Positions 41,695-63,551 of a stretch of 64,000 bases of DNA are shown in pieces; position 1 is the stretch's first letter; every line of letters begins with the position of its first letter. The DNA lies in assembly GCF_042242105.1 (NCBI RefSeq), contig NC_092029.1, positions 3,324,885 to 3,388,884 on the forward strand. Direction: 5' to 3'. Under the pieces are notes generated by a model. The model had not been told where the DNA came from, did no database searches, and was given only the letters and a program-made list of their open reading frames with translations. The DNA comes from Pempheris klunzingeri (taxonomy: Eukaryota > Chordata > Actinopteri > Acropomatiformes > Pempheridae). The position numbers and the translations under genes were made by a program.

Positions 41695-44315
41695 TCACTT
41701 GTTGACGGTTGCGTAGAGGCTGCAGGGATCAGTGGAGGGAGCTTTCACAGTGGTGTAGGTGACTGCATCACCTTCATCATCACCATGTTTCCTCTGAACC
41801 TGGGAGGACACAACACAATATAAATTACACAACAGGAAATGACAGCAGCAACTACACCCAGCAGTAAAACGCAGCACAACACAACAAAACAACACAAAGC
41901 ACAAAGTGTTTTTCTGTTTTCATTCACTGCCATCACCACTATAACCAAACAGACAGCGCACCTGACTGTTACCGCTGGTCGTCTTGGTGTAGCTGACGGT
42001 GGCGTAGGAAACACCGTCTTCAGGATCAGCCTAACAGAGAAGACAACATCATGGCTGCTCAGTAACGTGTGCGTTCAAACTGACTCGTGCTTCTGATTCT
42101 ATTCTTTTTTTCTCACAGTGAACATTATAAAGTCTGTCATGTCTTGTTACGTCTCTTTTAAATGATGCCTCAAGTTGAAAAGTAGTTTTTTTTTGGTGGT
42201 TTTTTGGTGTTTCCCTTCTGGTCTTGTTGCATCATCTAACTTCCCTTTTTATATTTCTTACACATTCTCACACTCTCAAGGCCGCACAGACTGTAAAACA
42301 CAGTTATATTTCATAGAGCAAATGCAGCCAGCTGTGAGTGCGGCACTGCACCGGGTGTGGTGTATGATCTCACCATATCCGGACTGGTTTCTAGACCGGA
42401 CTGAGTCCCTGCAGGGTTTGAGGTCAGCCTCTGGACAAACACAGTCTAGTTACATTTGTTACAGTTCAGTGAATGCAGATAATGTCTGGACACAATGCAA
42501 ACAGCACCTGTGCAACACATGCAGTATATCTGTGCAGGTTTTAAGCTTATAGTGTGCAGCTCCTCGAGCTTTGCTGCTGCAACCGTCAACACTGTTTATC
42601 TCCTCACTTCTCAGCTTTAGAGTAAACTTTATAGTCAAGACCCGTTTTTTAAACTCACAACATTGTCATTCATCCGCGTTTTGTTCCCTGAAAAGACAGA
42701 AAAGGGGGTCGACAGTAAAAACAAAATCCAATTTTATCTTTATCGTGGGAAAGTTTGATCTGTGGTTTCTCTCACCTCTAGCTTTCTTCCATCTGGTGAC
42801 TGCGACAACAGTTATTAAAAGAGCTACTAAAACCACAGCCACAAAGATGTACAACCAGGACCAATCTGGAGAGATGATGAAAACATTTAAAGTATTTTGG
42901 CGGCAGCTTTCTGTTCTGTTCTGTAAAAGTGATTTAGCTAAAAACAGAAGAGAATTACATGTGATTTTCAGAAGGGTTTAAACATTCATTTGACAGGTTC
43001 CTCACCAGATAGTAGAAACAGGTCAAAACACTGAGTCACTACCTTGTGGTTCTTTGGAAACCTCATTGGTTGTAGACGTCGTTGTGATGTTTCCTGTTTC
43101 TGTGCTGCTCTTCTGACCTGAACACATGAACACAACTTAAAGAATTATGTTGAGCTTTAAGATGAAAACTTCAAATCCGTAAAATAACCAAATGTTTCAG
43201 GTCATTGCAGCGACTTTAAACAGCTCATCATGATCTCACCTGGTTTCTCTCCTGCAGACTGAGGTCTGAGCAGAAACAGATGCTTTCTTCTAGTGTTACC
43301 ATCAGTCACTTCACATTTAAAGGTGTTTTTATACCTTAATGAGTAACTGAAATGATCAGTCTGAAAGGTCACAGAGGCAGAGCAGGAAGACTGTGCTGTC
43401 TTCAGATGTGGGTGATTTGGATCCACATGGGTACCATGATACAGCCACTCTACCGAGTGTGTGCATCGTCCATATGTCGTTACAGAGCAGTTTAACGTCA
43501 CCACATCAGCGTTCTCATGTTCTGTCACTGGTGCACAGGGAGATATTATGAGAGAGACAAAGGAGTAAAATTAACTTCATCCCTGTGATCATAATTATTG
43601 TAAAGGTTCAGTAAATTGTTCTGACAGTTTGAGCTGAAAACATGTTAATACTCACCGTTAATCAGAGACAGATAAACACGAGAGTCTGAACCTTGTTTAT
43701 TTCCTGCTTTGTATTGTCGACAGGAGTAAATACCAACATCCTCGACTGTGACCTTCTTTATAACCAGAGAACAGTTCGCTGTCACACTCAGTCTGGCTGC
43801 TTTATTTTTTGCATGTCCACCAATCTGCCCAAGTGTAATCAGCTCGACTGTTGTGCCTCTTGAATGACTGTAGAGCCACGTGGTACCGTTACAGTTATCC
43901 TCATCACGCAGCACATTTTCACAAGACAAAGTGACTTCATCTCCAACTCTGACATACAAGGAGAGGTCTCCGGCTGCTACTTCAGCTGCTGAGAAGACGA
44001 GAGACAAAAACATAAAGAATAATAAAGAGAAATAAAAATGTTTTAGATTCAACAAAAGAAATGTTCATGATGTGAATCATTCTTCATCTCCAAGACTTCA
44101 CTCAACTCATCATCTCCAAACAAACACAATACTTGGCTGTCTTTCTTAAATGAGCCCAGGTTAGGTAACAGACTAACATTACTGATGTCAATAGATGAGC
44201 TTGTCTAATGTCTCTGTCATGTATCCGTTATATATATGTTCTGTGTATCTTTACCTGGAAGCTGAAGCACCAGCATCAGAAACAAAGACATTTGAATCCG
44301 TCTGAATCCAACCAT
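41695..44315 (-). CDS. IgR1: two-Ig-domain inhibitory-type receptor with three ITIM-like motifs
   Basis: Minus-strand exons: 44255-44315, 43656-43988, 43240-43527, 43043-43117, 42776-42865, 42659-42687, 41962-42030 and 41695-41799, joining in frame to 349 codons plus TGA. Residues 1-20 are a signal peptide (MVGFRRIQMSLFLMLVLQLP). Domain 1 (21-131) is V-type, with B-strand Cys, CNGTTW, NCSL and F-strand YSC. Domain 2 (132-227) repeats that four-Cys pattern (NCSV, RC...VEW, SCSA, FKC). A Ser/Thr stalk follows, then a helix at about 258-277 (FVAVVLVALLITVVAV). The tail carries VSYATV (Y301), VTYTTV (Y330) and SLYATV (Y344), which fit the ITIM consensus and would recruit SH2 phosphatases such as SHP-1. 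Receptor function is inferred from architecture. Exon phases (1 from the signal exon through exon 5) are typical of Ig receptors. The ligand is unknown and I cannot give a gene symbol. Confidence 0.82.
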
Positions 44316-44805
44316 CACACCTCTGTCTCTCTTCTCTCTCTGTTTCTTGTGCTTGTGAGTCTCTAAAGCTGCTGCTTCTTAAGGACAAATGTTGTGTCTA
44401 CTTCCTCTAATCAGTAAAGCATCACTTCCTCTTCATGACTGGCACCTCCTTTTTCTCTCACGCTGTCATGTATGGCCCACATGAGCTGGTGTTGTCGTGG
44501 AACCTGATGTTCACGGTTGTGTCGACACCAAATGATGAAGAGGCGGAGACGCAGTCTTTTCGTGCAGGTGAGGAGACATTTATCTGAACACAATCTGTCA
44601 CAGCCACCGTTAATATTAGAAGCACTTGCCTCCAATCAGATGATGTTCAAACCACAAGTGATGCAGGAAGCTCCTCTTGTCTCTTGAGAACCACTGTGGT
44701 GAAAAACAAGAGCTGATATAACAGTCAGGCCTCTTTGTGTCTCCTGAGTTTAGACTCAGTGAGACTCAAGCAATGTTTCTCCCATGTTATTAGATGGAAA
44801 CATAG
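43028..44805. repeat. Duplicated block: IgR1 ectodomain and upstream flank
   Basis: This block (signal peptide to stalk exons, introns and 5' flank) is nearly identical by eye to 51027-52712 at IgR3, apart from about 66 extra bases near 44500 here. Up to 44446 it also matches 47602-49020 at IgR2. Similarity stops abruptly just past the stalk exon donor, inside intron 4, where IgR1 switches to a different membrane and tail part. Confidence 0.8.
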
Positions 44806-45089
44806 AAAGAACCACTGCAGTGTGAGGGCCACACTGACTGAGATACTCAAGTTCAAATGACTGCATGTCCACTACGTTTGTCTGACGGCTTTAGTTACTA
44901 ATCAGATTACATTCTTTCTTTTTGAATGTTTCTGATAAAGTGACGGATGAAATGTTTCTCGACTGTACTTTTTAAGCACGTGTAGTTGCGGTCTGGAGTA
45001 TTTCCACAGTGCAGTATTAGGACTTAAACTATGTGAACACGTCTCCCATCACTGCTGATCACTTCTCCTCCTCACATTGTGCTGCAGGT

Positions 45090-45133
45090 TAACCTACGAC
45101 TCCCCCTTCTGGACAAAAAGGCTTTTTGCAGCC
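45090..45133 (-). repeat. Dispersed repeat 'CGACTCCCCCTTCTGGAC', copy 1
   Basis: It shares about 40 nearly identical bases with 53259-53303. Both copies are followed within 60 bases by an expanded microsatellite, as if they were ends of the same element family. Orientation relative to any parent element is unknown. Confidence 0.6.
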
Positions 45134-45159
45134 ACACGTCCTAATGATGACCACAAAAT

Positions 45160-45520
45160 AATGATAATACTACTACTACTACTACTACTAATAATAATAA
45201 TAATAACAATACTACTACTACTACTACTACTACTAATAATACTACTACTACTACTACTACTACTACTAATAATAATAACAATACTACTACTACTACTACT
45301 ACTAATAATAATAATGATAATAACAATACTACTACTACTACTAATAATACTACTACTACTACTACTACTAATAATAATAATAATAATAATAGCAATACTA
45401 CTACTACTACTACTACTAATAATAATAATAATAATGATAATAACAATACTACTACTACTAAAACTACTAATACTAATACTAATACTATTACTACTACTAC
45501 TAATAATAATAATAATAAAA
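45160..45520. repeat. Large compound (TAC)n/(TAA)n trinucleotide array
   Basis: About 360 bases of alternating CTA and AAT trinucleotide blocks. All six frames stay open or nearly open and give false proteins of Leu/Ile, Ser/Ile or Val/Leu runs. Confidence 0.95.
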
Positions 45521-45986
45521 AGCACAGTCAAATGCGATCAGTGTCAGTTATCAATATAAAAACTGTAAGTTTAAGTGTACAACAATTATATTACAGCAGT
45601 CATTGGTGATGAAAATCTTAAATCTCAGGCTCCCTCCAACAACACTCAGACAATATACTGCATATAAAAAAGAGAAATTTGCAATTAAAAGTCAGAATAC
45701 AAATCTGAGGCATAGTGTAGAAGTCAAAAAGGAGAAATAAGATGTGATGTAGATACAATAAAACAGTGAACTCCTGTGTTATAATGATAAAATGGGTCTC
45801 AGGATAGAAGGTGTCGTACTCTCACAGACTGTGAAGCTCCTGAAGTAAAGTTTGTGGTTTGTGATGCTGGGCTGTGTAAAACTGACTTGACTTGAGGAGG
45901 GTTTTTCTAAAAATACAGCAGCCGAAGGAAAAGTTGTGGTTCAGTTTGGAGTTAAAGGAGCCTGATGTGTTTTCAGAGGAGCACTG

Positions 45987-48900
45987 GGCCTGTTCAGAGA
46001 CCAGCAGCATCCACCGGAAACCATCACACGCTGAGTGCACGAGGACGTCACAGAACTCAGAGGAGGATTGTTAAACACTTTTTTTATTCGCAGATTATAT
46101 AACTGTCCCATAATGAAGACAGCGCTGTTAATGACGTCATTAAGACTCACCACGCACAGAAATATGCCAACAAAAATGCTAAATGTAGGTTAATTGAAAC
46201 GAGTTCTTCCTTAAGCAGAGACATGAAACTAACGTCAAGCTGCTGCAGCTTTGATATTCATCACTTAATCTCAATATCAGGACAAAATGCTTTAATTATG
46301 TGAAGCCAGCTTAATGAAGTTAGAGAAGAATGAAAGGATCTTTCTGGTTGACTTCCATTAAAACTCAGCTGCTGTGTGTCTGAATTGACTGCACATGAGA
46401 AAAGTCTTTGTAACGGATGCAGGAGAAACACGTTGCACTGAAATAAGATCAGATGATCTCAAGAGTCATCTGTTTTTTGTTCTTTCTGATAGAAGCAGAA
46501 GGGTTTGGTCACACTCCATTTGAAGATGTGACGTTTTCATAGTTCACTGTATCATCATCTTCATCATTGGGCTCCTGTGAAAAACAGCAGTTGAAAGAGC
46601 AAAGTGAGAAAATGCTGTGTGATGTGATGTGAATTAGCTTCAGATCTACGGTCTCTGTGGAGGCTGATATCATCTGATATTTGCTTCATTAATGTGTTTT
46701 TATGTGGCTTTTCCCTGCAATGAATCCTTTACAGTACAGCACAGTGAGCCCTGTGTGTCTTTGTCTTCTTCTATGGTGGCAGGTCAATAGTCTGAACTGG
46801 TCTAACACCTTTCTAGTCGTTTCAGCCGCTCACCGTGCTTCTTCTGTCTGGTTTCTAATGAATAACAGACATCACTGACAGTGGTTTGCTGTGAAGAGTC
46901 TGGATTGTAAAAAGTATTTTATTTCTTTGTTGTAAAAACTCACCTTGTTTTCATCCATCTGAGTTTTCCTCCCTGAAATAATTCAGAAAAAAAAGCGGCG
47001 CCTTTAGTTTCCACAGTGAAATTCCAGATTAGTCAAAACTTTTCTTTTCGTCTGTGAGTGTTGTCACCTGTCGCTCTTGTCCATATGTTGACTCCCACGA
47101 CAGTTATCATGAGCGCTGCTAGACCCACGGACACGATGATGAGCCTCCACACGCCTGCAGCTGAAGGAAAAACATGAGGAACATCTCAGCAGCAGCTTTG
47201 TGTTCAGTTTAAAACAGGTGACCGAAAGAGAGGAGAGATACACGTCGTTCATTTGTTATTGGAAGCACAAATGAGTAAAAAGCTGCTGAACACTGACTTT
47301 ACCCATTTTAAATGACTGTTATTTCAGAGTAAGCTTATTAAATGTCATCTTTTATTATTTACTGCTTTTTTTTTGTTGCTCTTATCTTTATTTTTAGGGC
47401 TCTTATTGTAAAGTTGTCTGAATCTGACACTGTTCATCTGATGTGAGCACATCGTGCTCCTCGTAGGTGCTTTTGTCCAACTATTTGCTCTGATGTCACT
47501 GTAAGATCTCTAATCTTATCACACACACTTTTGCCTGCACGTCTTTACTAATTTAAAATATCTCCAACCACAACCAAGTGTCAGAGGGACAGACAGAAGA
47601 AACACTGAGTCACTACCTTGTGGTTCTGCTGAAGCCTCATTGGTTGTAGACGTCGTTGTGATGTTTCCTGTTTCTGTGCTGCTCTTCTCACCTGAACACA
47701 TGAACACAACTTAAAGAATTATGTTGAGCTTTAAGATGAAAACTTCAAATCCATAAAATAACCAAATGTTTCAGGTCATTGCAGCGACTTTAAACAGCTC
47801 ATCATGATCTCACCTGGTTTCTCTCCTGCAGACTGAGGTCTGAGCAGAAACAGATGCTTTCTTCTAGTGTTACCATCAGTCACTTCACATTTAAAGGTGT
47901 TTTTATACCTTAATGAGTAACTGAAATGATCAGTCTGAAAGGTCACAGAGGCAGAGCAGGAAGACTGTGCTGTCTTCAGATCTGGGTTATTTGGATCCAC
48001 ATGGGTACCCTGAAACAGCCACTCTACCGAGTGTGTGCATCGTCCATATGTGGTCACAGAGCAGCTTAACGTCACCACATCAGCGTTCTCATGTTCTGCC
48101 ACTGGTGCACAGGGAGATATTATGAGAGAGACAAAGGAGTAAAATTAACTTCATCCCTGTGATCATAATGATTGTAAAGGTTCAGTAAATTGTTCTGACA
48201 GTTTGAGCTGAAAACATGTTAATACTCACCGTTAATCAGAGACAGATCAACACGAGAGTCTGAACCTTGATGTTTTCCTGCTTTGTATTGTTGACAGGAG
48301 TAAAGACCAACATCCTCGACTGTGACCTTCTTTATAACCACAGAACAGTTCGCTGTCACACTCAGTCTGGCTGCTTTATTTTTTGCATGTTCACCAATCT
48401 GCCCAAGTCTAATCAGCTCGACTGTTGTGCCTCTTGAATGACTGTAGAGCCACGTGGTACCGTCACAGTTATCCTCATCACGCAGCACATTTTCACAAGA
48501 CAAAGTGACTTCATCTCCAACTCTGACATACGAGGAGAGGACTCCGGCTGCTACTTCAGCTGCTGAGAAGACGAGAGACAAAAACATAAAGAATAATAAA
48601 GAGAAATAAAAATGTTTTAGATTCAACAAAAGAAATGTTCATGATGTGAATCATTCTTCATCTCCAAGACTTCACTCAACTCATCATCTCCAAACAAACA
48701 CAATACTTGGCTGTCTTTCTTAAATGAGCCCAGGTTAGGTAACAGACTAACATTACTGATGTCAATAGATGAGCTTGTCTAATGTCTCTGTCATGTATCC
48801 GTTATATATATGTTCTGTGTATCTTTACCTGGAAGCTGAAGCACCAGCATCAGAAACAAAGACATTTGAATCCGTCTGAATCCAACCATCACACCTCTGT

Positions 48901-49010
48901 CTCTCTTCTCTCTCTGTTTCTTGTGCTTGTGAGTCTCTAAAGCTGCTGCTTCTTAAGGACAAATGTTGTGTCTACTTCCTCTAATCAGTAAAGCATCACC
49001 TCCTCTTCAT
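45987..49010. repeat. 3.4-kb tandem duplication, left copy (IgR2)
   Basis: This block matches 49411-52435 (IgR3) at a period of about 3424 bases. It covers the 3' flank, all exons and all introns. The unit carries one complete receptor gene. Near identity in introns means a recent duplication or recent gene conversion. Confidence 0.85.
46509..48889 (-). CDS. IgR2: two-Ig-domain receptor with a single VNYENV ITIM
   Basis: Minus-strand exons: 48829-48889, 48230-48562, 47814-48101, 47617-47691, 47068-47160, 46944-46972 and 46509-46574, joining to 314 codons plus TGA. The signal peptide, both four-Cys Ig domains and the stalk are almost the same as IgR1. From the membrane exon on the gene is different: helix LIIVSVGLAALMITVVGVNI with no charged residue, then a short acidic tail EPNDEDDDTVNYENV ending SSNGV. 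VNYENV (Y305) fits the ITIM consensus, and YEN also fits the Grb2-type YxN pattern. One tail exon replaces the two of IgR1. An alternative acceptor three bases apart (CAGCAG) exists at domain 1. Function is inferred as an inhibitory or dual-signal surface receptor. Confidence 0.82.
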
Positions 49011-49932
49011 GACTGGCACCAGGATGTGACTCCTGACATCCACGGTGTGATGTGGTGGTGATGCTGCAGCTCAGAGAGATCACAGATAAGATCATGTCTT
49101 ACTGGTCTGAGACCTGTTGGTTCATCGTTGTGTCTTTGCACTCGTTTTTCTCAGAAACCTGAAGGGGAAGTAGTTTGGTGAGAATTTAGTGAACAACAGC
49201 AGCAGAGTCCACACTTTATTAGGACATAAGACAAAGAGGTAAAATGAAATGTATTTACATTCATATTAGGTCAGAGGAAGTGGTCATGTGCATCCGAACC
49301 GTCTGTTCTCACAACTATTTGTGACAATTACACCATTTAGTGGTCTGTCTGTAGCCTGTAGTCTCTTTGTGGTCATTTTGTGTGTATTTGTGCTTGTCAT
49401 TGTCCTGCTAGGCCTGTTCAGAGACCAGCAGCATCCACCTGAAACCATCACACGGTGAGTGCACGAGGAAGTCACAGAACTCAGAGGAGGATTGTTAAAC
49501 ACTTTTTTTATTCGCAGATTATATAACTGTCCCATAATGAAGACAGCGCTGTTAATGACGTCATTAAGACTCACCACGCACAGAAATATGCCAACAAAAA
49601 TGCTAAATGTAGGTTAATTGAAACGAGTTCTTCCTTAAGCAGAGACATGAAACTAACGTCAAGCTGCTGCAGCTTTGATATTCATCACTTAATCTCAATA
49701 TCAGGACAAAATGCTTTAATTATGTGAAGCCAGCTTAATGAAGTTAGAGAAGAATGAAAGGATCTTTCTGGTTGACTTCCATTAAAACTCAGCTGCTGTG
49801 TGTCTGAATTGACTGCACATGAGAAAAGTCTTTGTAACGGATGCAGGAGAAACACGTTGCACTGAAATAAGATCAGATGATCTCAAGAGTCATTTGTTTT
49901 TTGTTCTTTCTGATAGAAGCAGAAGGGTTTGG
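48890..49932. other. Spacer between IgR2 and IgR3
   Basis: It contains the IgR2 5' flank (shared with IgR1 only to 49020), then a patch at 49018-49210 matching 59930-60117 near IgR5, then the probable IgR3 3' UTR with a minus-strand AATAAA at 49507-49512. No further gene is seen. Confidence 0.6.
49018..49210. repeat. Flank patch shared with 59930-60117
   Basis: Both copies read 'aggatgtgactcctgac', then a CACGGTGTGATGTGGTG block, 'ttactggtctgagacctgtt' and 'aacaacagcagcagag' in order. This upstream sequence belongs to the IgR5 side of the cluster and appears to have been joined to the IgR2 5' flank. Confidence 0.75.
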
Positions 49933-52435
49933 TCACACTCCATTTGAAGATGTGATGTTTTCATAGTTCACTGTATCATCATCTTCATCATTGGGCTCCT
50001 GTGAAAAACAGCAGTTGAAAGAGCAAAGTGAGAAAATGCTGTGTGATGTGATGTGAATTAGCTTCAGATCTACGGTCTCTGTGGAGGCTGATATCATCTG
50101 ATATTTGCTTCATTAATGTGTTTTTATGTGGCTTTTCCCTGCAATGAATCCTTTACAGTACAGCACAGTGAGCCCTGTGTGTCTTTGTCTTCTTCTATGG
50201 TGGCAGGTCAATAGTCTGAACTGGTCTAACACCTTTCTAGTCGTTTCAGCCGCTCACCGTGCTTCTTCTGTCTGGTTTCTAATGAATAACAGACATCACT
50301 GACAGTGGTTTGCTGTGAAGAGTCTGGATTGTAAAAAGTATTTTATTTCTTTGTTGTAAAAACTCACCTTATTTTCATCCATCTGAGTTTTCCTCCCTGA
50401 AATAATTCAGAAAAAAAAGGCGGCGCCTTTAGTTTCCACAGTGAAATTCCAGATTAGTCAAAACTTTTCTTTTCGTCTGTGAGTGTTGTCACCTGTCGCT
50501 CTTGTCCATATGTTGACTCCCACGACAGTTATCATGAGCGCTGCTAGACCCACGGACACGATGATGAGCCTCCACACGCCTGCAGCTGAAGGAAAAACAT
50601 GAGGAACATCTCAGCAGCAGCTTTGTGTTCAGTTTAAAACAGGTGACCGAAAGAGAGGAGAGATACACGTCGTTCATTTGTTATTGGAAGCACAAATGAG
50701 TAAAAAGCTGCTGAACACTGACTTTACCCATTTTAAATGACTGTTATTTCAGAGTAAGCTTATTAAATGTCATCTTTTATTATTTACTGCTTTTTTTTTG
50801 TTGCTCTTATCTTTATTTTTAGGGCTCTTATTGTAAAGTCGTCTGAATCTGACACTGTTCATCTGATGTGAGCACATCGTGCTCCTCGTAGGTGCTTTTG
50901 ACCAACTATTTGCTCTGATGTCACTGTAAGATCTCTAATCTTATCACACACACTTTTGCCTGCACGTCTTTGCTAATTTAAAATATCTCCAACCACAACC
51001 AAGTGTCAGAGGGACAGACAGAAGAAACACTGAGTCACTACCTTGTGGTTCTGCTGAAGCCTCATTGGTTGTAGACGTCGTTGTGATGTTTCCTGTTTCT
51101 GTGCTGCTCTTCTCACCTGAACACATGAACACAACTTAAAGAATTATGTTGAGCTTTAAGATGAAAACTTCAAATCCGTAAAATAACCAAATGTTTCAGG
51201 TCATTGCAGCGACTTTAAACAGCTCATCATGATCTCACCTGGTTTCTCTCCTGCAGACTGAGGTCTGAGGGGAAACAGATGCTTTCTTCTAGTGTTACCA
51301 TCAGTCACTTCACATTTAAAGGTGTTTTTATACCTTAATGAGTAACTGAAATGATCAGTCTGAAAGGTCACAGAGGCAGAGCAGGAAGACTGTGCTGTCT
51401 TCAGATCTGGGTGATTTGGATCCACATAGGTACCCTGAAACAGCCACTTTATCTCTTTACATCGTCCATCTGTCGTCACAGAGCAGCTTAACGTCACCAC
51501 ATCAGCGTTCTCATGTTCTGTCACTGGTGCACAGGGAGATATTATGAGAGAGACAAAGGAGTAAAATTAACTTCATCCCTGTGATCATAATTATTGTAAA
51601 GGTTCAGTAAATTGTTCTGACAGTTTGAGCTGAAAACATGTTAATACTCACAGTTAATCAGAGACAGATAAACATGAGAGTCTGAACCTTGTTTATTTCC
51701 TGCTTTGTACAGTCGACAGTAGTAAAGACCAACATCCTCGACTGTGACCTTCTTTATAACCAGAGAACAGTTCGCTGTCACACTCAGTCTGGCTGCTTTA
51801 TTTTTGGCGTCTTCACCAATCTGCCCAAATCTAATCAGCTCGCCTGCTGTGCCTCTTGAACCAATGAAGGCCCACGTGGTACCGTCACAGTTATCCTCAT
51901 CATGCGGCAAATTTTCACAAGACAAAGTGACTTCATCTCCAACTCTGACATACGAGGAGAGGTCTCCGGCTGCTACTTCAGCTGCTGAGAAGACGAGAGA
52001 CAAAAACATAAAGAATAATAAAGAGAAATAAAAATGTTTTAGATTCAACAAAAGAAATGTTCATGATGTGAATCATTCTTCATCTCCAAGACTTCACTCA
52101 ACTCATCATCTCCAAACAAACACAATACTTGGCTGTCTTTCTTAAATGAGCCCAGGTTAGGTAACAGACTAACATTACTGATGTCAATAGATGAGCTTGT
52201 CTAATGTCTCTGTCATGTATCCGTTATATATATGTTCTGTGTATCTTTACCTGGAAGCTGAAGCACCAGCATCAGAAACAAAGACATTTGAATCCGTCTG
52301 AATCCAACCATCACACCTCTGTCTCTCTTCTCTCTCTGTTTCTTGTGCTTGTGAGTCTCTAAAGCTGCTGCTTCTTAAGACAAATGTTGTGTCTACTTCC
52401 TCTAATCAATAAAGCATCACTTCCTCTTCACGAAT
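49411..52435. repeat. 3.4-kb tandem duplication, right copy (IgR3)
   Basis: Right-hand partner of 45987-49010. The two differ by small indels, including one extra base near 50418 and one missing codon in domain 2, and by clustered coding changes. Confidence 0.85.
49933..52311 (-). CDS. IgR3: two-Ig-domain receptor with a single VNYENI ITIM
   Basis: Minus-strand exons: 52251-52311, 51652-51984, 51239-51523, 51042-51116, 50493-50585, 50368-50396 and 49933-49998, joining to 313 codons plus TGA. The plan is that of IgR2: signal peptide, two four-Cys Ig domains, short stalk, uncharged helix, and tail with VNYENI (Y304), an ITIM with Ile at +3. Amino-acid changes against IgR2 cluster after the domain 1 Trp (WAFIGSRGTAGELIRF), around the F-strand Cys (YYCRLYKAG), and in domain 2 (GRCKEIKW, one codon shorter), while introns are nearly unchanged. 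The domain 1 exon ends AAC T|GT rather than AAC G|GT, so the junction residue becomes Leu instead of Val. This may be a functional receptor with a shifted ligand preference; that is inference. Confidence 0.82.
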
Positions 52436-53258
52436 GCTGTCATGTATGGCCGGCATGAGCTGGTGTTGTCGTGCAGGTGAGGAGACATTTATCTGAACAC
52501 AATCTGTCACAGCCACCGTTAATATCAGAAGCACTTGCCTCCAATCAGATGATGTTCAAACCACAAGTGATGCAGGAAGCTCCTTTTGTCTCTTGAGAAC
52601 CACTGTGGTGAAAAACAGGAGCTGATATAACAGTCAGGCCTCTTTGTGTCTCCTGAGTTTAGACTCAGTGAGACTCAAGCAATGTTTCTCCCACGTTATT
52701 AGATGGAAACATACACTATATGGAATATCGAAATGAATGCAAATATAACAAAAAATGTTGTGTCTACTTCATCTAATTAGTAAAACACCACGAACTGGTG
52801 CAAACTTCACACTGGCCTGAAGTAAGTAGAACTGAACATTTAATATGAACTTGTTAATATTAAAATTACAGAACAGGTGGTATGAAAATAAAAACAAGTT
52901 TAAAAAAAGGATACATATGCAACAACAACCCACCATTAAAGTGTCTGACCGCAACTTCATCCTGTAAAATATATCTTAATGTACACTGTTGCCCATAAAG
53001 TTGGAATAATTGTTCAATACCACCAATTTAGTTAAAGCCTGAATACACAGTTTGTGAAGGTTAATTGTGGTTTAAGTTTCACTGTGATGTGTTTGGAGGA
53101 GTTTGATCAATAAAGTTGAGAACATATACACTTTATTTATCAAGAATAAATCACATTGTCACAATCATTTCATGAGAAGAGGTAAAAAACATTTTAGTCC
53201 AACTAGTCCACCAGTGTATTATTGTATTTACATCACAAGCAGCCGCATAATGTTAGGA

Positions 53259-53303
53259 CAACCTGCGACTCCCCCTTCTGGACAAAAAGGCTTTTTACAG
53301 CAG
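53259..53303 (-). repeat. Dispersed repeat 'CGACTCCCCCTTCTGGAC', copy 2
   Basis: Partner of 45090-45133. It lies about 160 bases past the IgR4 stop in minus sense and directly before a TA array. Confidence 0.6.
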
Positions 53304-53316
53304 AAAATATTAGGGT

Positions 53317-53332
53317 TATATATGTGTGTGTG

Positions 53333-53396
<64 letters not shown>

Positions 53397-53398
53397 CA
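53317..53398. repeat. (TG)n/(TA)n microsatellite
   Basis: A short TG part and then about 30 TA units with two CA interruptions. It probably lies within or just past the IgR4 3' UTR. Confidence 0.9.
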
Positions 53399-53463
53399 GA
53401 AATAACTCCACTGTGGTCTCTTATGTGTTTGGTTTGTTCATGGTGGCGTAGAGGTTGTTGGGA

Positions 53464-55825
53464 TCAAAAGAAGCTTCTGGGAGATGAAGAAGAAACTTTC
53501 ACAGTGGTGTAGGTCACTTCATCATCATCATCATCATTATCATCATCAGCAGCAGCAGCAGCTTTACCCAGAACCTGTAAAACACCAGACAAGCAGCACA
53601 GCAACATGAATTACACAACGTTAAATGGCACAAAAGAATGCAAGTGAATGCAACACTATGATGTCCAGCAGCACCTGAACACAACACAGTGCTCAGTGCT
53701 GAAACAGAGAACAACAGTACACAATCCTTACATGCAGACGTGAACTTTAAAGGTTAAATAAAGAATCCGTCACGTGTTTTCATCGCTGTAACCGAGCAGA
53801 CGGCGTACCTGACTGTTACTGCTGGTCTTGTTGGTGTAGCTGATGGAGGTGTAGGAAACACCTTCTTCAGGATCAGCCTATCAGAGAAGACATAATACAT
53901 AATGGCTGCTCAGTAACATGTGAATCTCCTCAGTTCAGTTCAGTTCAAGGTGCATCATAACTAACACGTGTAACAGCTCAAATCCTCCACAAATAGTCTA
54001 TTTACCGGTTAACATGCACGATAATCACCACTTATGATTGAATTTACAATGGTTGAAGAGGGTATTTCTATTTACTGAGCCTCACAATTCATTACATCGC
54101 ACAAAAATCTCATATATTTACATTCAGTCATAAACATCTGCATAAATCTATCAAGCATCTTCGTGTTGATATTTCACAGAGCAAATAGCTTTTTTCATCT
54201 GGTCTCCCTATCAGGACAGTTTCAAAATGACTTGTCTTCGTCCATCTTTCAGCTGAACTCAGCAGTGATTGGCTGCAGCCAGAAAGGTCGGCGCAGCTCA
54301 CATCAAAGTCCAGCAGATCTGAAACTGACTGAGGCTATGGTTTGTGGTGGAGTTCATCTTTGTAGCTCACATTTCAGCTGACTTTGGTTAGTACTGAACT
54401 TTTCTTTTCCTCACAATGAACCTGCTTAGACATAGTTCACATAACTCACAGTGTTTTCATCCGTCCGTGGTTTGTTCCCTGAAGAGAGAAACATGCTGCC
54501 TTTAGCTTCCACAGTGAAAATCCAGGTTTATCAAAACTTCTCATTTATAAAAGTCTTCACCTTTAGATTCCTTCCATCTGATGAGAACCGCAGCAGCTAT
54601 GAGGAGCGCTGCTAAACCCACAGCCACGATAGGAAACCGCCACCAAGCTGGAGAGAGAATTAAGAAACATCAAACACTGGCAGTGGTTTTGTGACCATGA
54701 ACTCTTTGGTAACATGCTCTCATGCTGCATATTTTCTTTCCTATATTTGAATTGGATCTTTTGGATGAAATATGAAATGTGAAGTCACCGTGTTGTGTTG
54801 TTGGACCGTGGTTTGTAGTCGCCGTGCTGTTCGTCCCTGCTTTTGTTCTCTTTCCCCCCGTTGTTGTCGATTTAGTTGTGGGAGCTCCAGTGGTTTTTGC
54901 TGTAGTTTCTCTCGTTGTTGGTGTTGCTGTCGGCCTATTCGCCGCTGTTTTTGTGTCCTCAACTAGAGGAAAGGAAACAAATAATCACCATCCATCGTCC
55001 GTGTTCCCATCTTCAGCAACTACATGCAAAATGTCATCTAAAAAGGTCAGATTTACAGAAGATAAAAGAATAATGTGAGGACTGAGGGTGAACTGCTGAG
55101 GACATTACAGCACTCTAACACTGACATGGTGGTAAAACTGTGGCATTTCATGTCTTTGCTCTTTGTATTCGCAGAATTTGACACCATTTATAGATGTCAT
55201 CCCAGGATTAAAGCATCTCCATAACACGTAAAAGTAAATACTCACGGTCAACAACAGACAGCTGATACTCAGCATCTTTACTGTGTTTCTGTCTGCAGGT
55301 GTAAAGGCCAACATTCTTCGCAGCGACCTTCTTTACCGTCAGAGAACAGTCGGATGAAACACTCAGTGTGTTCGATTCACGGCCGGCAACGTCGACAATG
55401 TTCCCGTGTTCAAACAGCGTCACCATGTCGGCTGACTGGCTGAAGAACCAGGTTGCGCTGCTGCATTCATCCTGATCCTCCATCGTATTTTTCCCACAAG
55501 GCAGATCGACGTCAACTCCAACGGTGACGGTGAAAAGGTGCGGACTTTGGACAGTTACTGGTGAGAAAAACAAAATGAGACAGAAAGATCTTTAAAGAAT
55601 ACACTTCAAATTTGAGTAAGACTCTTCTGGTCATGACTGACTTAAGGTTCTGTCTCTAAATGTCTTCTCTTCTAACTCAGCATTCACTTCCCTTGGCTGT
55701 CTAAGTTAACTGAAGGTTATTTCCTAATATCAATCAAGCTTAAATTCATCGTTTTTATCCTCACCTTTAAACTGAAGCACCAGCATCGGAAACAAAAACA
55801 TTTTAGTCCTTTCGAGGGCAACCAT
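53464..55825 (-). CDS. IgR4: single-Ig-domain receptor with mucin-like stalk and two ITIMs
   Basis: Minus-strand exons: 55765-55825, 55246-55557, 54789-54962, 54561-54647, 54450-54478, 53809-53877 and 53464-53574, joining to 280 codons plus TGA. After a signal peptide, domain 1 (21-124) keeps the four-Cys V pattern (LPCG, ECSSATW, DCSL, YTC). Where its relatives have a second Ig domain there is a 58-codon Thr-rich exon (125-182, many TT/TTR/TTK) that looks like an O-glycosylated mucin stalk. The helix (FPIVAVGLAALLIAAAVLI) is followed by the IgR1-type tail: VSYTSI (Y230) and VTYTTV (Y266), both ITIM-like. The last exon has an Ala5 and an Asp-rich run (a GAT repeat) and stops early at SPRSFF. 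A third motif, homologous to SLYATV of IgR1, survives just downstream in the +1 frame. It is a likely inhibitory receptor; function is inferred. Confidence 0.78.
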
Positions 55826-56098
55826 CGTTCTTCTCGGTGAGTCTCTGAACTTTAGTTGTGCACAGGTTCTCAGTGCTTCCTGTGAGCACCTAAGTGTGAC
55901 TTCCTCCCAGCGTCCTCTTCAGCTTAGCTCTCTTCCTTTCTCTCCCTCTAGAAGCCTACAGCAGATAGCAGGTGCTGTGTGCTCGCTGCATGACTGGTCG
56001 GCCATATAGGATGTGTGAAATGTATTTGTGTCCGTATGAGGTCAGAGCAGGTGGTTTCTGAGCATTCACAGATCACTCTGAGTGCATTTCTATCCGCA

Positions 56099-56510
56099 TT
56101 AACCCTTTAAGGTCCGCACCAAGAAAAAAGTGATGGAAAAATGTATTCTTTATATATTTTATATATTTATTTCCTTGGGGCACTAATTACAAAAATCTAT
56201 GTTTTTTTATGAACAGACCCCACATTTTTTGAAATATTGGCCCCTACCAAACGGTTGAGATGTCGTAAGTAAAACATGTTTTCAATAAGATATAGTGAGT
56301 CAAAATGTGCTCTACCATATGGTTGAGCGGAAGGTTAAAGGGTTAAGATGCATTTGAGAGTTTGTACTACTAGTTAAGGCAGGACATTCATAGTCAAAAA
56401 TATATTCACTTTCACAAAATAAAGTGGAAAACATGATTTCTTTATTTGCAGAATATATTGTTAGCAAATATAATGAAGAGAAATCAGTCACTGACTCCAT
56501 TAAGGGTTAA
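56099..56510. mobile_element. piggyBac-like MITE candidate with TTAA target duplication
   Basis: The element is bounded by TTAA on both sides (56099-56102 and 56507-56510). Its ends are CCCTTTAAGG and, on the other strand, CCCTTAATGG, which match at 8 of 10 positions. TTAA target sites and CCC-starting inverted ends are typical of piggyBac elements. The 400-base interior is A/T-rich and codes for nothing recognisable, so any mobility would need a transposase in trans. An internal 'taaagggttaag' near 56337 might be an alternative end. Confidence 0.5.
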
Positions 56511-56599
56511 AACCATTCAAGCCAAACACATGCACATCCCAAGGAATATGTAAAGTAAATTAAAGTGAGTTCTTCTGCAGACAGAGACATGAAACTCCA

Positions 56600-57000
56600 A
56601 CTCTGATTCAGTCCAGCTTTACTTGACCCAAAGTGCCGTACGATCAGATTAGCAAAATAAGACGACAGAGTAGAAACACAACAGGTGAAACAGTCTCACA
56701 CACTCAGTTCAAAGCCGAGGAATGAGAAAAGGAATTTAAAAACAGGCAGCGTAGGGGCAGCCGAACATGCAGAGGAAACTCACTCCACAGTTTAGAGGCT
56801 ACAACTGCAAAATCACCATCTCCCCTCTGCTTCAACCGAGGCCTTGGGACAAACAGGGGCAGCCGGTCAGCAGATCTGAGAGACCTTGTAGAAGGTCAGA
56901 GAGAGAGGACGGAGCTAGGCCGCTTAGTGGTTTATAGACAAACAATAAAATCTTAAAATCAACCCTAATACGTAGCTGCTGCAGTCTGGACCAACTGCAA
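56600..57000 (-). repeat. Old teleost interspersed repeat
   Basis: Phrases 'gaggaaactcactccacagt', 'atctcccctctgcttcaacc', 'ggtcagcagatctgagagac', 'aaaatcttaaaatcaaccct' and 'agctgctgcagtctggacca' recur in this order in a repeat I recall from many fish genomes. Family identity and strand are tentative. Confidence 0.5.
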
Positions 57001-57330
57001 GCGTGAGACTGAGCTCAAACTTAAAAAAAAGAAGAGTAAATCTTAAAATCAGGTCTGAATTCCCTCCCAAAAAAAAACAATAATCTGGGCTGCTATATCA
57101 AGTGACTGGTGAGGAGAATGAGGAATAAGTGAAGACAAATTGCAAGGGTGGAAAAACCCACACAGGCCGAAAGTAAAAGAAAACGAGAGGAGAGGAGGCT
57201 ATTACAACATTAAACAGGAAACAATGAATGTTTAACTAGACTACAAAACAAAGACGTGGCAGGGGAAGTGAAACATCAGAGCGGGAGGGGAGGACAGAAG
57301 CAGAGCATGACAGATAAAATCGAGGCTCTA

Positions 57331-57625
57331 AAGGTCCCATATTCTGCTCGTTTTGAAGTTCGTACTGGAGCAGGTTTACACGGTTTACTCCGTTTTAGAG
57401 GAACAGAACAGTTCAAACGACAGAACACACAACAGTGGACAGCGAGGTGGACTCCTTTTTAATGGCTAGAGGAGGTCACATGATCAACACATCCCCTTGT
57501 GACATCACAAGGGGAGCCAAACCTTTTCACACACATTTTCTGAAAGATGGAGGGGAAGAAGAGAGAGGACTCAGAGTTTGGCAGTTCTCTAAACACACAT
57601 TCAAAAGTGCAAAATATGGAACCTT
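57331..57625 (+). mobile_element. MITE-like repeat with terminal inverted repeats
   Basis: The left end AAGGTCCCATATTCTGC (57331-57347) and the complement of the right end, AAGGTTCCATATTTTGC (57609-57625), agree at 15 of 17 positions. The interior includes a GTGACATCACAAGGGGA stretch and 'ctgaaagatggaggggaaga'. A shortened copy in the other orientation is at 13535-13760. No coding capacity is seen. Confidence 0.6.
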
Positions 57626-57713
57626 AAAATCTGGTTGAAAGTGAGAATCAGTTTAGCTCTAACTTCCTTTTTCTGCGTCAAGGCATTATCTCAGACCTCC
57701 GACTGAAAGCAGG

Positions 57714-58346
57714 TGTAAAATGATGCTGTGAAGAAATGTTGAACAGCTGTGGACTCATTTCTCTGCTCAGGTGATGCTGGTGTGGAAGCTGTTGATCAGT
57801 GGAGTCTGACAGAAGCTGAAGGTTCTCCCATGTTCTCATAGTTCACTGTGCCGTCATGTCCGTCTCCACCATGATGCACCTGTGAGAAACAGCAACACAC
57901 CTGAGTTCCAATGGAACAAAGAAATGTTGAATTACTGCATCACAGAGACATCAGCAGTTACCAGCAGCAGCTGATAATCATTTACACTGACTTACAGTCC
58001 CTGATCATCCATCTACATTTGTGATTTTACTCATCACTTCACTTCACTTTGTGTTTTAACTCACAGTTTTGTCATCAGCTGCTCTCTGCTTCCCTGGAAA
58101 ATAAACCACAGAGTCACTTTTCACCTCTAAACTCTTAATCAGTCTGAACAAATGTTGCTCTGAGTTTTCTCACCTCGAGCTCTGAAGAGAAGAACAGTGA
58201 TCACAGTAATCAGGAGGATTTCAGCCACACGTATGACCAACATCATGTAGTCCAGAACAGAACAACCTGTACAAGCTGTGGGACAGAAAACATGTCAGAG
58301 AGGAAAGTTTTCAGCAGGAAATCAGAGGCACAACACGTGTGTTCAG
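57714..58346. repeat. Duplicated membrane/tail block of IgR5 (partner 62004-62636)
   Basis: About 630 bases covering the membrane, linker and tail exons plus introns are nearly identical to the IgR6 block at a distance of 4290 bases. Similarity ends just upstream of the membrane exon. Confidence 0.85.
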
Positions 58347-59421
58347 CCTTGCTGGTGGTGCTGCTGAAGGGACGGGTGTTTCTCACCCTCTTGTGCTGCT
58401 GCTGGTGATAAGAAATGACCTCATGTTCACCATCTGCAGTAACTAAATGAGAATGAATGATGCCGTCTTAACACAGCTTGTCACAATCTCACCTGGTTTC
58501 TCTCCTGACGACTGAGGGCTGAAGGTGAACTGCTGATGATTAATATTATTGGTCACTTCACACTTGAATAACTGATGATACTTTGGCTTGTCAGACGTCA
58601 GAACAGTGATACTGGCTGAGCAGGCAGACGGAGATGTCGTCTTGTATCTGTTGTCTTTACCCTCATACAGCCACCTCACTGTGTATCTGCACTCTCCATG
58701 TGTCGACACAGAGCAGTTTAACATCACTTTGTTATTGTCTTCATGTTCGGTCACTGGTGAAGAGAAGGAGAGATGTGAGAGAAAAACAATCAATGTCATC
58801 ACTGTGATCATAAATATTAAGTTTTAATAAATTGGTCCAACGAAACAGTTTGAGCTGAAATCATGATGATGTAAATACTCACTGTTAATAAGAAACAGAT
58901 AAACGAGATGTGTTCTTGAGTTTGTCTGTTGGCAGATGTAACGACCAGCATCCTCAGCTGTGACCTTCTTTATAACCAGAGAACAGTTCGCTGCCACACT
59001 AAATCTGTCTGATTCAGCTTTTAGCTTTTCACCAATCCATCCAAATAAAAGCAGATCTACTACTCCTCCTGAGTCTGTTGAACCACTGTGGTACCAGGTA
59101 GCACTGACACATGTATCCTGATCCTTTGTCTCACTGTTACAAGGCAAAGTGACTCCATCTCCAGCTCTGACAGTGTAGTATTGTCCCTGTGTTGCTGTTG
59201 AGAAGATTAGTAGCACAAATATGAAAAATAAATCAGAATACAACTGTCATGCTCAGACTTAATGTTAAAGAAGCCTTATGGTGTTTATAGTATATTCATA
59301 GTACTTAACCTTATTTACTTAACATTTTTTAAATAGATGTGTACAGAAATGTATCCTTACCTGTAAACTGAAGCATCAGTGTCAGAAATACAAATATTCT
59401 AATCCATGTTAATTCAGCCAT
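57796..59421 (-). CDS. IgR5: two-Ig-domain receptor with VNYENM (YxxM/YxN) tail and charged membrane helix
   Basis: Minus-strand exons: 59361-59421, 58883-59194, 58493-58753, 58387-58401 (a 15-base microexon), 58174-58275, 58065-58093 and 57796-57879, joining to 287 codons plus TGA. Signal peptide, then domain 1 (21-124; LPCN, TCVSATW, NCSL, YIC) and domain 2 (125-211; NCSV, ECRYTVRW, ACSA, FKC), each with the four-Cys pattern. The stalk is only AAAQE. The membrane part (YMMLVIRVAEILLITVITVLLF) has Arg and Glu three residues apart, unusual for a simple anchor. The tail ends with VNYENM (Y274), followed by about a dozen residues. Met at +3 breaks the ITIM consensus but gives YxxM (PI3-kinase p85) and YxN (Grb2), as in CD28-type costimulatory receptors. 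The gene may be the activating or costimulatory partner of IgR1-4; that is inference. The microexon could be mis-drawn by three bases because of a CAGCAG acceptor. Confidence 0.75.
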
Positions 59422-59929
59422 GTTTTCCTCTCTGCTGTCCTGATGATCTAAATGATCTGGTGTGTCTGACACAGGAATATAAAACCCTCTGTGTTTAAGA
59501 AAGAGTCACTTCCTCATCGTCTGTTCTTTTTTTTCTCATGTAGGTGGAGCATATCAGCGTTTCATCTCTGAGAGTCTCTAAAAAGCAAAAACATTTTGCT
59601 AATTGATTCCCAATGATCTTATCAGCAATATCAAAATAAATAAAGATTAAAGAGATCAGAGGAGATCATTGAAGAGATCCTGTGAAACCAGATTTAGCAT
59701 GTGGGACATTTTACTAAATGTATTTGTATTTGTGACGTGTCTGAAAAGAAGAAGACGAGAGGACTGAGGAAGTTGGTGGTTGGTGTGAAGTTGATGGTTG
59801 AGCTAAAAATATGTGATGCTGTGACTTTCATCCTTCAGACAGTGTTTATCAGAGAGCAGACAGGAGTCATGGTGATGTTTGACAGCACACATGAACACAC
59901 AGGTGAAGAGCCAAACTCCTCGTCCACCA

Positions 59930-60117
59930 GGATGTGACTCCTGACGTCCACGGTGTGATGTGGTGACGCTGCAGCAGCTCAGAGAGATCACGGATACGAT
60001 GATGTCTTACTGGTCTGAGACCTGTTGGCTCATCGTTGTGTCTCTGCACTCGTTTTTCTCAGAGACCTGAAGGGGAAGTGGTCTGGTGAGAATGTGGTGA
60101 ACAACAGCAGCAGAGCT
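59930..60117. repeat. Flank patch shared with 49018-49210
   Basis: Partner copy of the patch in the IgR2 upstream flank, in the same orientation relative to the receptor genes (about 510 bases upstream of the IgR5 ATG). Confidence 0.75.
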
Positions 60118-61389
60118 CTGGAGGTTTTTAACCTCTAACCATGACCAGACGAACTTCACAAACACAAATGGTGTCTGACTGAACCGTCTTAGAATAACTG
60201 GACCATCAGGCCTCCACAGTCCCTTTGTGGACACAAAGTAGCATCTGTTTGTTACAGAGGTTTTCACAAAACGCTGCATTTGGCTGTGTTGTCTGACTTG
60301 GTTTGACGTCACTGCTTCTGGTATAGTTGAGGATGTTTCTCACTCTGTACTGTGTGCACACAGAAGAGGCCGGTCTGTGGTCACTGAACACGGTCTGACA
60401 TGTGTTTGCACTGACATTATGCTACAGTAGGTATAGTCATGTTCATCCACGATGAGGATTTCTAAAAGGAGCTGGAGTGATTAGATTCCTGTGTATTCTA
60501 GTGTGATTTGGGGGGAATTTCTGTGTATTTGGACACATTTTAGCGCCCAGTGTGAACAGAGTTGTCAGCAGCAGCAGTGAGTCTTTGGGCAGATCTCCTC
60601 ATCACACTTTTTCACACGTTCACTCCCCTTTGTGGTGTTTTTACAGCACATCGTTCATGCAGCACGTTTTCACACATCCATAACCTACTACTGACTTCAC
60701 AGGCTGCTCCCATCTGCTTCTTTGTTTGTTTAGGATTATTTCATTTGAATTAAATTACTTTGTCATTAAGTCGACCTGCCTCTGTCCTGATTTCGTCCGA
60801 CTGACTCAAAAGCTCAGACAGCAACAGGCTGCTGTTCATTGTGAATAGAAACTGGTGAGATCCAGGGCTGAGTGTTTTTGGGGGGACAGGGCCTTCTCTA
60901 TTGGATTCCTCTTCCTTCCTCCATCCCGTTGTCCCCCACTACTGACATCTTCAAGACTAAAACACACTTTTAACGGACCCTAACCCAGGTCTGTGTCACT
61001 GTGGGCTCTGTGTGACCACGTGCCTTTACTGTCACTATCATTATCACAGCTATTTATCATCACTCTCATCTCTCTTCTCTTCTCTTACGTTTGTTTCCTT
61101 CTGTTGTTTTCCTCTGTGTCTGCTGTAAAGCACCTGGGATCAGCAGTGTTGGGTGTAAAGTGCCATGTAGATAAAGTTGATTGGATTTTATTTGATTCGG
61201 TGTTTAGCGGTACAACAGTGAACAGTTTAGAGAAGCTTCATTTTATGCAAATGCCCTCTGAAACTGAAGCACGGAGCTGTTTACTGCTCGGCTCCACTAA
61301 GGGATCACTTCCAGTGCAGATACAGGACTACAGTGTCCATTAGTCCCTGTTTGTGTTGTATTAGCTATTAAGAAGAAGAAAAAAGAAGA

Positions 61390-61640
61390 AGAAGCAGAAT
61401 TACTTTATTATTTCCCTTTAAGGAAAAGTTCAATCTTTCCCGTCCAATGTACAGTTTTTACAAACACACACACACACACAGACACACACACACAGGCCCA
61501 AAATACAGACATGCACATGCAAGACCTTTAGACACACAACTGTGGGGAGAGATGGTGAAGTGATGTTCCTGCCACATAGCTGGAGCAGTCAGGGCGTCAG
61601 TGTCTTGCTCAAAGGCATCTCGGCAGTGCCCATGAGGCAA
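61390..61640 (+). repeat. Non-LTR retrotransposon 3'-end-like repeat
   Basis: It begins 'tactttattatttccctt', includes a CA array at about 61464-61495, and contains 'cagtgtcttgctcaaaggca' and 'tctcggcagtgcccatgagg'. I recall the phrase 'cttgctcaagggcacttcgg' from a widespread teleost repeat. It is an old copy with no coding remnant. A TGTAAAGCACCTGGGAT-like tail near 61125 may belong to a separate element. Confidence 0.55.
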
Positions 61641-62003
61641 AATTAGCAAAACTACATGAGACCACAAACGAACAATTAAACATCAAAGTTACTAAAATGA
61701 GGTTCTCTGCTGAAAGAATGGTGAATATCATAGTAAGCTGCTAACAAAGTAAAAGGCAATCAGACAAATCTGCAGGTCTAAATTCACACAGATGAAATCC
61801 AAAGAAAGTTACTAAAAGTTATTTCATGTAAAAACTTCCAAACAACACCATGACGTGTGTTCTTACATGGACAGCATCTTAAAATGAGATGACATCAGTG
61901 CTTTGTGTCTGCTGGTAAGAACTGCTTCAGCACATTAACTTTAAAACCAAACGTTAACACGTTAACTACGACCTCCAAATGGAATCAGGACTGATGTTCT
62001 TCA

Positions 62004-62636
62004 TGTAAAATGATGCTGTGAAGAAATGTTGAACAGCTGTGGACTCATTTCTCTGCTCAGGTGATGCTGGTGTGGAAGCTGTTGATCAGTGGAGTCTGAC
62101 AGAAGCTGAAGGTTCTCCCATGTTCTCATAGTTCACTGTGCCGTCATGTCCGTCTCCACCATGATGCACCTGTGAGAAACAGCAACACACCTGAGTTCAA
62201 ATGGAACAAAGAAATGTTGAATTACTGCATCACAGAGACATCAGCAGTTACCAGCAGCAGCTGATAATCATTTACACTGACTTACAGTCCCTGATCATCC
62301 ATCTACATTTGTGATTTTACTCATCACTTCACTTCACTTTGTGTTTTAACTCACAGTTTTGTCATCAGCTGCTCTCTGCTTCCCTGGAAAATAAACCACA
62401 GAGTCACTTTTCACCTCTAAACTCTTAATCAGTCTGAACAAATGTTGCTCTGAGTTTTCTCACCTCGAGCTCTGAAGAGAAGAACAGTGATCACAGTAAT
62501 CAGGAGGATTTCAGCCACACGTATGACCAACATCATGTAGTCCAGAACAGAACAACCTGCACGAGCTGTGGGACAGAAAACATGTCAGAGAGGAAAGTTT
62601 TCAGCAGGAAATCAGAGGCACAACACGTGTGTTCAG
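62004..62636. repeat. Duplicated membrane/tail block of IgR6 (partner 57714-58346)
   Basis: Nearly identical to the IgR5 block. The similarity ends at 62636, where about 450 bases of unrelated sequence separate it from the next upstream exon. Confidence 0.85.
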
Positions 62637-63551
62637 GGACGTCAGTGTCGGTCGGTCAACACTAAAACATCTCAACTACTAGTAAACGGCTTCACATGAA
62701 ATTTCAGACATTCATGAAAATAAACGAAGCTTTATAACTACGTTCGGGATCAATGACTCACCTCAGTATTAAAACTCATCATATCCACTTCTTCCACCTC
62801 TGACTCAGTTTGCACCTGTTTTTTCTCTCTTTTGTTGAATTCAGGAAGCACTAAAGATCTTTGCTACACGATTTCAAGCAAGATTTCCCTTCATCCCTTC
62901 ATCCCTTCATCCCTCCCCCAGACCCTCCATCCATCCTACCTCCTTCGACTCAGCTCCACTTCCTCACTGTAAAATAAACCATTGGAAGTCGATGACTTTC
63001 TTAGTGAATGTTTGCGTGTGAATTATCCTCCCAAGTCCTGATTTGCTTCGTGTTGAATAATGAAGGAGGGATTTTGTTCCTCACCTTCTTGTGCTGTTGT
63101 TGTTGTTGTTGTTGCCTCCTCACCTGACAAATTAAAAAACAAAAACTGTAAAATGAGAAAACTCCATAACTCAACACAGAGCAGTTTAACGTCACTTCAT
63201 CCTCGTCCTTTTGTTCTGTCACTGGTGGAGATAGATATCATGTGAGAACAAGTAGAAGTATAAATGACACTGCATCATAATTGCTGTGTTTAAGATGTGA
63301 ATACTCACTGACGACAAGAGACTCAGCTGCTGCACGTTTAATAAGCAGAGAGCAGTTCACAGTTACGCTCAGTCTGTCCGATTTAGCCGCGGCACCTTCA
63401 CCGACGTGCCCGGACTGAACGAGCTCTGTTCCTGCTCTGTATCCCGAACGACCCCTGAAGAGCCAGGCGGTGTCGTTGCACCCGTACGGACTGTTTCTAC
63501 TTCCACAAGGCAGCGTGACGTCAGCTCCATCTCTGACAACAGAGCGAGCCT
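62086..63551 (-). pseudogene. IgR6: damaged paralogue of IgR5
   Basis: Recognisable minus-strand exons: domain 1 63309-63551, a domain 2 remnant from 63221 to about 63160, a stalk exon 63085-63123 (GEEA, six Thr, AQE), membrane exon 62464-62565, linker 62355-62383 and tail 62086-62169. Membrane and tail exons are intact and nearly identical to IgR5, including VNYENM. Domain 1 is 81 codons against 104 in IgR5: it keeps LPCG, GCNDTAW and NCSL, then jumps from LLIKR to AAAESLVVS, so the F-strand and its cysteine are missing. Domain 2 breaks off after NCSVLSYG and has no proper donor. No signal-peptide exon is visible up to the window end, though one could lie beyond it. Most likely a pseudogene; a spliced transcript joining domain 1 to stalk and tail remains possible. 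Confidence 0.65.
62884..62916. repeat. (CCCTTCAT)n octamer repeat
   Basis: Three to four copies of an 8-base unit inside the sequence inserted between the IgR6 membrane and stalk exons. Confidence 0.8.

Follow-up and report, generated by a model that had tools for sequence, protein, structure and literature searches.

Several described receptor families resemble the locus considered here, a tandem array of immunoglobulin (Ig) superfamily genes beside btbd9 in the teleost Pempheris klunzingeri. NILT are known from salmonids and cyprinids; NITR have two Ig domains and a J-like FGxG at the end of an Ig domain; DICP, found in zebrafish and carp, are clustered, with one or two Ig domains and both inhibitory and activating forms, and in zebrafish they are linked to major histocompatibility complex class I; the TREM locus of mammals is linked to NFYA. 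According to PMC3022915, NILT occur in teleosts as gene clusters whose products have a single Ig domain or two and tails carrying immunoreceptor tyrosine-based inhibitory motifs (ITIMs), and some of the copies are pseudogenes; their introns are in phase 1 and then phase 0, their tails hold four or five inhibitory motifs, and their V domains have extra cysteines spaced as CX3C (single-Ig forms) or as CX6C/CX7C. Receptors of the CD300 type carry WCR in strand C, according to PMC3031540. NITR are presented in PMC9652883 as clustered fish receptors with inhibitory and activating forms, and as candidate natural killer receptors; the search for KIR or Ly49 genes in fishes is there said to have had no success. 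DICP, further treated in PMC5340972, are introduced in PMC6869251 as a new multigene family whose homologues in mammals are not easy to recognise, and gibel carp DICPs are said, in PMC8662705, to recruit SHP1 via ITIM.

The stretch analysed, called the window throughout, comprises 64,000 nucleotides (C18:3324885-3388884 on contig NC_092029.1, so that window position equals C18 position minus 3324884) of a 646-Mb genome in 439 contigs. Copies are named A–F in the window, l1–l4 in a group to its left, r0–r5 in a group to its right, and x1–x4 for divergent copies further left. As judged from its sequence, the locus probably encodes, in a teleost multigene complex, paired receptors that are type I proteins of the Ig superfamily. 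A paired-receptor complex near btbd9 is what the original prediction had proposed, and it is well supported: ectodomains occur on both ITIM and non-ITIM tails, the V domain has an excess of amino-acid change, and the family is concentrated at this place.

Near-identical ectodomains on different signalling tails

Splice models were built for genes A–E, which read from ATG to stop without internal stops and have GT-AG boundaries at 30 of 30 introns (7 of 7 in A, a gene of 350 codons including the stop; without it, A, B, C and E encode 349, 314, 313 and 282 residues). All five follow a common exon order. Intron phases, taken from exon lengths, are phase 1 among the signal, V, second Ig, stalk, transmembrane (TM) and first cytoplasmic exons, and phase 0 for the later introns. 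The V exons match Pfam V-set above the cut-off (A 1.4e-9, B 1e-8, C 3.6e-9, D 4.4e-7, E 2.1e-8); the second Ig exons give only sub-threshold matches to C1/C2-type and other Ig families. Shared exon order and phases, claimed earlier for six genes, stand for the open spliced models of A–E, the sixth, F, being a broken copy; the plan varies among the five, D having one Ig domain and E no stalk exon. Copy F is called a broken gene copy because its V and second Ig are truncated and because none of the five mechanical candidates for a signal exon in the 3.06 kb upstream resembles the signal exons of the family; the V exon lacks the last canonical cysteine (V-set E 0.04, below the cut-off), 23 residues of the second Ig remain, and the 3' part is 99.5% identical to that of E over 633 bp.

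Tyrosine motifs, predicted for all tails, are present in each of the five tails scanned (A–E), and F carries a near copy of the YENM part of E. The tail of A holds three ITIMs (VSYATV, VTYTTV, SLYATV), and that of D holds VSYTSI and VTYTTV; at window 53440-53500 of D a counterpart of the last ITIM of A is recognisable, out of frame and beyond the earlier stop. The tails of B, C and E carry VNYENV, VNYENI and VNYENM respectively, and none of those of A–E has an activation motif of the ITAM type. The YENM of E conforms to YxN as well as to YxxM, a feature it has in common with CD28 and DAP10. Judged by position and counted by eye, the downstream tail exons of l1–l4 and r5 have two or three strict ITIMs. 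F and r0–r4 have the YENM tail. The helix of E contains R and E three residues apart; those of A, B/C, D, l1, l4 and r5 are without charge in their best 19 residues (seven sequences, including E).

A pairwise listing of matches between copies drops hits shorter than 90 bp or below 80% identity. In it, A and B share a stretch of 1421 bp at 98.0% identity, which begins upstream of the signal exon and ends at 43026, shortly after the stalk exon; no further match between the two is listed at these limits. B and C are 98.0% identical across 2791 bp, and the tail exon of A is 84-87% identical to those of D, l3, l4 and r5. On the right, the ectodomains of E and r5 are 96.5% identical over 1139 bp, with an uncharged helix and ITIM tail in r5 and YENM in E. 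Near-identical ectodomains are therefore joined to inhibitory-type and to other tails in A with B/C and in r5 with E-type genes, so that two ectodomain kinds (A/B/C and E/r5) stand on more than one tail type. Conversely, the TM/YENM cassette of about 640 bp, probably homogenised, occurs in seven copies bearing three kinds of ectodomain (r0; E with r1–r4; the broken F): alignments spanning this 3' part in E, F and r0–r4 are 97.8-99.7% identical over 623-1053 bp, even though r0 and F have ectodomains unlike that of E. In a V-domain tree of 22 rows, a single clade of the seven ITIM genes is rejected (p-AU 4.4e-6, approximately unbiased test), and the tail type changes at least four times among the 16 labelled rows.

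Several repeats lie between or beside the copies. Two near-identical elements of reverse-transcriptase-like appearance, recognised by eye, occur between right-group copies (C18 3418278-3420217 and 3425851-3427790) and possibly aid unequal exchange. A 335-bp TAC-type repeat (window 45168-45502) and a TA repeat (53333-53396) lie between gene copies. A repeated stretch upstream of several copies (window 49017-49207 and 59925-60115; C18 3421854-3422183 and 3429422-3429751) can be read as ...VSEKNECRDTTMSQQVSDQ followed by a stop; it may be what is left of a coding exon from an older copy, or may belong to the unit that was duplicated.

Amino-acid change in the V domain

Between B and C, differences number 27/333 in V, 12/285 in the second Ig and 5/1436 in introns (V versus introns, p 8.6e-16). 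A and B differ in V by 12 nonsynonymous and 0 synonymous changes (nonsynonymous above synonymous rate, dN>dS, p 0.033), and over the V exons of A, B and C there are 25 variable residues against one codon with synonymous change only. Nineteen of these 25 residues fall at 23-58 or 88-98 (p 1.5e-4, a value that is not independent because the regions were set after the residues had been seen). Among E and r1–r5, with r0 left out, the V ratio exceeds 1 in 14 of the 15 related pairs. Pooling E–r5, r3–r4, r1–r2 and B–C gives 62.5/962 against 6.5/289 in V (dN/dS about 2.9, p 0.004) and a dN/dS of about 1.1 in the second Ig (p 0.50); in the same pairs, V differs at 70/1263 and intron 2 at 8/515 (p 1e-4).

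A number of observations weigh against the paired-receptor reading. In the V tree, 2 of 19 inner branches are firm and 11 of 19 open, and long branches meet; the tails of the left and right groups are assigned by position and not by exon-by-exon models; and R and E in the E-type helix may neutralise each other. For dN>dS in V, the single pairs B–C and A–C give p 0.09 and p 0.13, the seven pairs with D or E have no dN excess (p 0.37-0.83), and the pooled pairs were picked after viewing the tree, which has unresolved inner forks there. In several of the 15 E-type pairs the 150 bp before V, in intron 1, vary as much as V or more (19/147 versus 19/309 in E–r4; 6/150 versus 11/315 in r3–r4), so that the contrast of V with introns rests on A/B/C and on intron 2, which has 0-7 differences in 129 in the E-type pairs. 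Finally, synonymous V sites of B and C (3/79) exceed their introns (5/1436; p 0.006), and part of the V divergence would therefore reflect old variants kept or conversion, besides selection.

Extent and surroundings of the cluster

The core copies, 16 including the broken F, occupy C18:3.133-3.442 Mb, with l1–l4 on the plus, A–F on the minus and r0–r5 on the plus strand. Genome-wide exon match counts are lower bounds. With the V exon of A as query (E<=0.001), at least 21 places are found, 20 of them on C18 3105032-3439873 and one on C4; with its second Ig exon, at least 14, all within C18 3133995-3440269; and with the charged helix, at least 7, every one inside the C18 cluster. A profile search of the stretches around these places recovers the same 21 V exons, together with 14 near full-length second Ig exons, 3 fragmentary ones, and helices of both kinds, charged in 7 cases and uncharged in 9. 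Between the left group and the window lie 167 kb for which no family exon is listed by the genome-wide searches (5 kb of it was read directly). The expected compact cluster near btbd9 is thus borne out and extends past the window on both sides; the count of six receptors is too high for the window, which has five open genes beside F, and too low for the locus.

Four divergent relatives, x1–x4, lie at C18 3.105-3.114 Mb. An x copy as query returns at least 20 matches (the 4 x copies, 15 core copies and C4), and the C4 copy at least 21 (itself, 19 on C18 and a weak place on C8, E 0.002). The x1–x4 region (C18 3104975-3115182) has its own type of second Ig, with VTYENI and VTYSTV tail exons nearby. 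The C8 stretch (L036 3252-4820) contains about four Ig-like open reading frames (ORFs), the first two showing the family's four-cysteine layout again; the P450 exons beside them look CYP21-like by eye, and this stretch is possibly a distant relative near a gene like those of major histocompatibility complex class III.

Coordinates of the window features are collected in Table 1. The BTB and BACK domains lie at 37.8-39.5 kb; we take the gene to be BTBD9 by recognition, alongside these matches. A gene at 20.6 kb is, by eye only, presumably zfand3, and its one tested exon has 0 Pfam matches; of the zfand3-btbd9 locus named originally, the btbd9 side is the one backed by domain matches. By eye, we also assume PNRC-like and CRIP-like LIM exons in the interval that separates the window copies from the right group, FABP-like and SMPDL3A-like genes to the right, and CYP2-like exons in the left stretch. 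Rfam has 0 matches in the window.

Table 1. Features of the window, in window positions.
Feature	Position	Strand	Composition or remark
btbd9-like exons	35619..39540	minus	BTB and BACK matches in 3 of 5 ORFs tested
Gene A	41695..44315	minus	signal, V, second Ig, stalk, TM, three cytoplasmic exons
Second Ig exon of A (genome query)	43240..43527	minus	
V exon of A (genome query)	43656..43988	minus	
Gene B	46509..48889	minus	signal, V, second Ig, stalk, TM, two cytoplasmic exons
Gene C	49933..52311	minus	exon plan as B
Gene D	53464..55825	minus	signal, single V, Thr-rich stalk, TM
TM/YENM cassette of E	57714..58357	minus	97.8-99.5% identical to its counterpart in F and r0–r4
Gene E	57796..59421	minus	signal, V, second Ig, helix with R and E; no stalk exon
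Copy F	62004..63600	minus	truncated V and second Ig, E-like TM/YENM 3' part

Family relationships and predicted signalling

The V domains have a distinctive cysteine layout: besides the usual pair there are two further cysteines, one directly preceding the tryptophan of strand C and the other where strand E begins (strand placement by inspection). All four are found in 20 of 21 V exons, F being without the last one. The second Ig domains of A, B, C and E have a similar four-cysteine layout, of which that of r5 has lost one cysteine. These cysteines would pair as disulphides.

This layout separates the genes from several families which they otherwise resemble. With NILT they share clustering in a teleost, Ig domains numbering one or two, tails with ITIMs, pseudogenes among the copies and introns in phase 1 and then phase 0; this phase pattern, with phase 0 before the last cytoplasmic exon, is seen in A–E but is not specific to NILT. 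The extra cysteines, however, are placed otherwise in 20 of 21 V exons (F has three cysteines): CX3C occurs in 0 of 21, and a C-x6to8-C spacing in 4 of 21, always, by inspection, using the first or last canonical cysteine. Furthermore, the five tails here have none to three inhibitory motifs, against the four or five given for NILT. The CD300, SITR and pIgR-like receptors also have a V-type domain with two cysteine pairs and signalling tails, but WC, part of their WCR, is found in 0 of 21 V exons. NITR are likewise fish receptors in gene clusters, with two Ig domains, but their J-like FGxG is found in 0 of 21 V exons, the only exons scanned for it. Assignment to NILT, CD300 or NITR was rejected on these signatures. 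The suggestion that the family is not a described one is supported in part, for these three, from which motifs set it apart, and DICP is the main rival.

That the genes belong to NILT, to the CD300/pIgR-like or to the TREM-like receptors, with their cysteines altered, is accordingly very improbable. The missing CX3C and WC and the position of the extra pair, ahead of the strand-C tryptophan and within strand E, speak against it; V-type domains, ITIM tails, clustering and NILT-like introns are in its favour. Location is a further point for TREM: human BTBD9 lies on chromosome 6. So do human TREM and NKp44, according to PMC3031540. For pIgR, 8 of the best 60 rows of the V profile against solved structures are pIgR or secretory component, in part as sums over several domains; the other matches among these rows include CEACAM, contactin, JAML and antibodies, none of the rows being a close relative, and no fish innate receptor is named among the matches listed. 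Adhesion molecules such as CEACAM and contactin are also the top whole-sequence matches, with JAML near the top, and would fit duplication by chance of cell-adhesion or other non-immune V-C2 proteins. Such an origin is improbable too, if slightly less so, given the exchange of ITIM and YENM tails, the amino-acid excess in V and not in the second Ig, and the expansion at a single locus.

A more serious alternative, though still an unlikely one, is that the genes represent the DICP family in percomorphs. The general design is the same, with one or two Ig domains in a teleost multigene family; mammalian homologues of DICP are not easily recognisable and its Ig domains bind lipids (PMC6869251), and SHP1 is said to be recruited through ITIM in gibel carp (PMC8662705). 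In the open-licence literature six peptide strings of the family have no occurrence, btbd9, zfand3 and immunoglobulin appear together in one paper, on chickens, and other searches return no title or abstract start on this locus, which holds for those searches only. Similar uncharacterised proteins are probably common in percomorph databases. As a tentative reading, with rather less than even chances, the locus could be an unnamed KIR-like complex of teleosts, confined to a single place and diversifying by exchange of whole modules, with the four-cysteine layout marking a wider group that has relatives on C4 and C8. Its design recalls KIR and LILR in the near-identical ectodomains on opposing tails and in the fast-evolving binding domain.

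For a complex of paired receptors, the following mechanism can be proposed. The products would be expressed in leukocytes, where the fast-evolving N-terminal V domain would bind diverse or changing ligands and so be under changing pressure, the second Ig acting as a spacer. Duplication, together with recombination in introns that follow the Ig exons or the stalk exon, would have joined ectodomains to different 3' modules. The ITIM module, with its uncharged helix and two or three ITIMs, would recruit SHP phosphatases and inhibit; the YENM module, with its R/E helix, would bind Grb2/PI3K or pair with an adaptor, and activate or co-stimulate; a third module, that of B and C, has VNYENV/I. Pairing of the R/E helix with an adaptor such as FcR-gamma is conceivable, although the nearby E may cancel the R; a catfish LITR with lysine in its helix pairs with FcR-gamma, according to PMC4810170.

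Near-identical outer parts on different signalling tails are typical of receptors by which immune cells set on/off thresholds. The locus bears on how inhibitory and activating thresholds are set in fish leukocytes, and by which receptors. It offers defined pairs, namely A with B/C and r5 with E, r3 and r4, for work on ligands and signalling, and it displays module exchange at low divergence.

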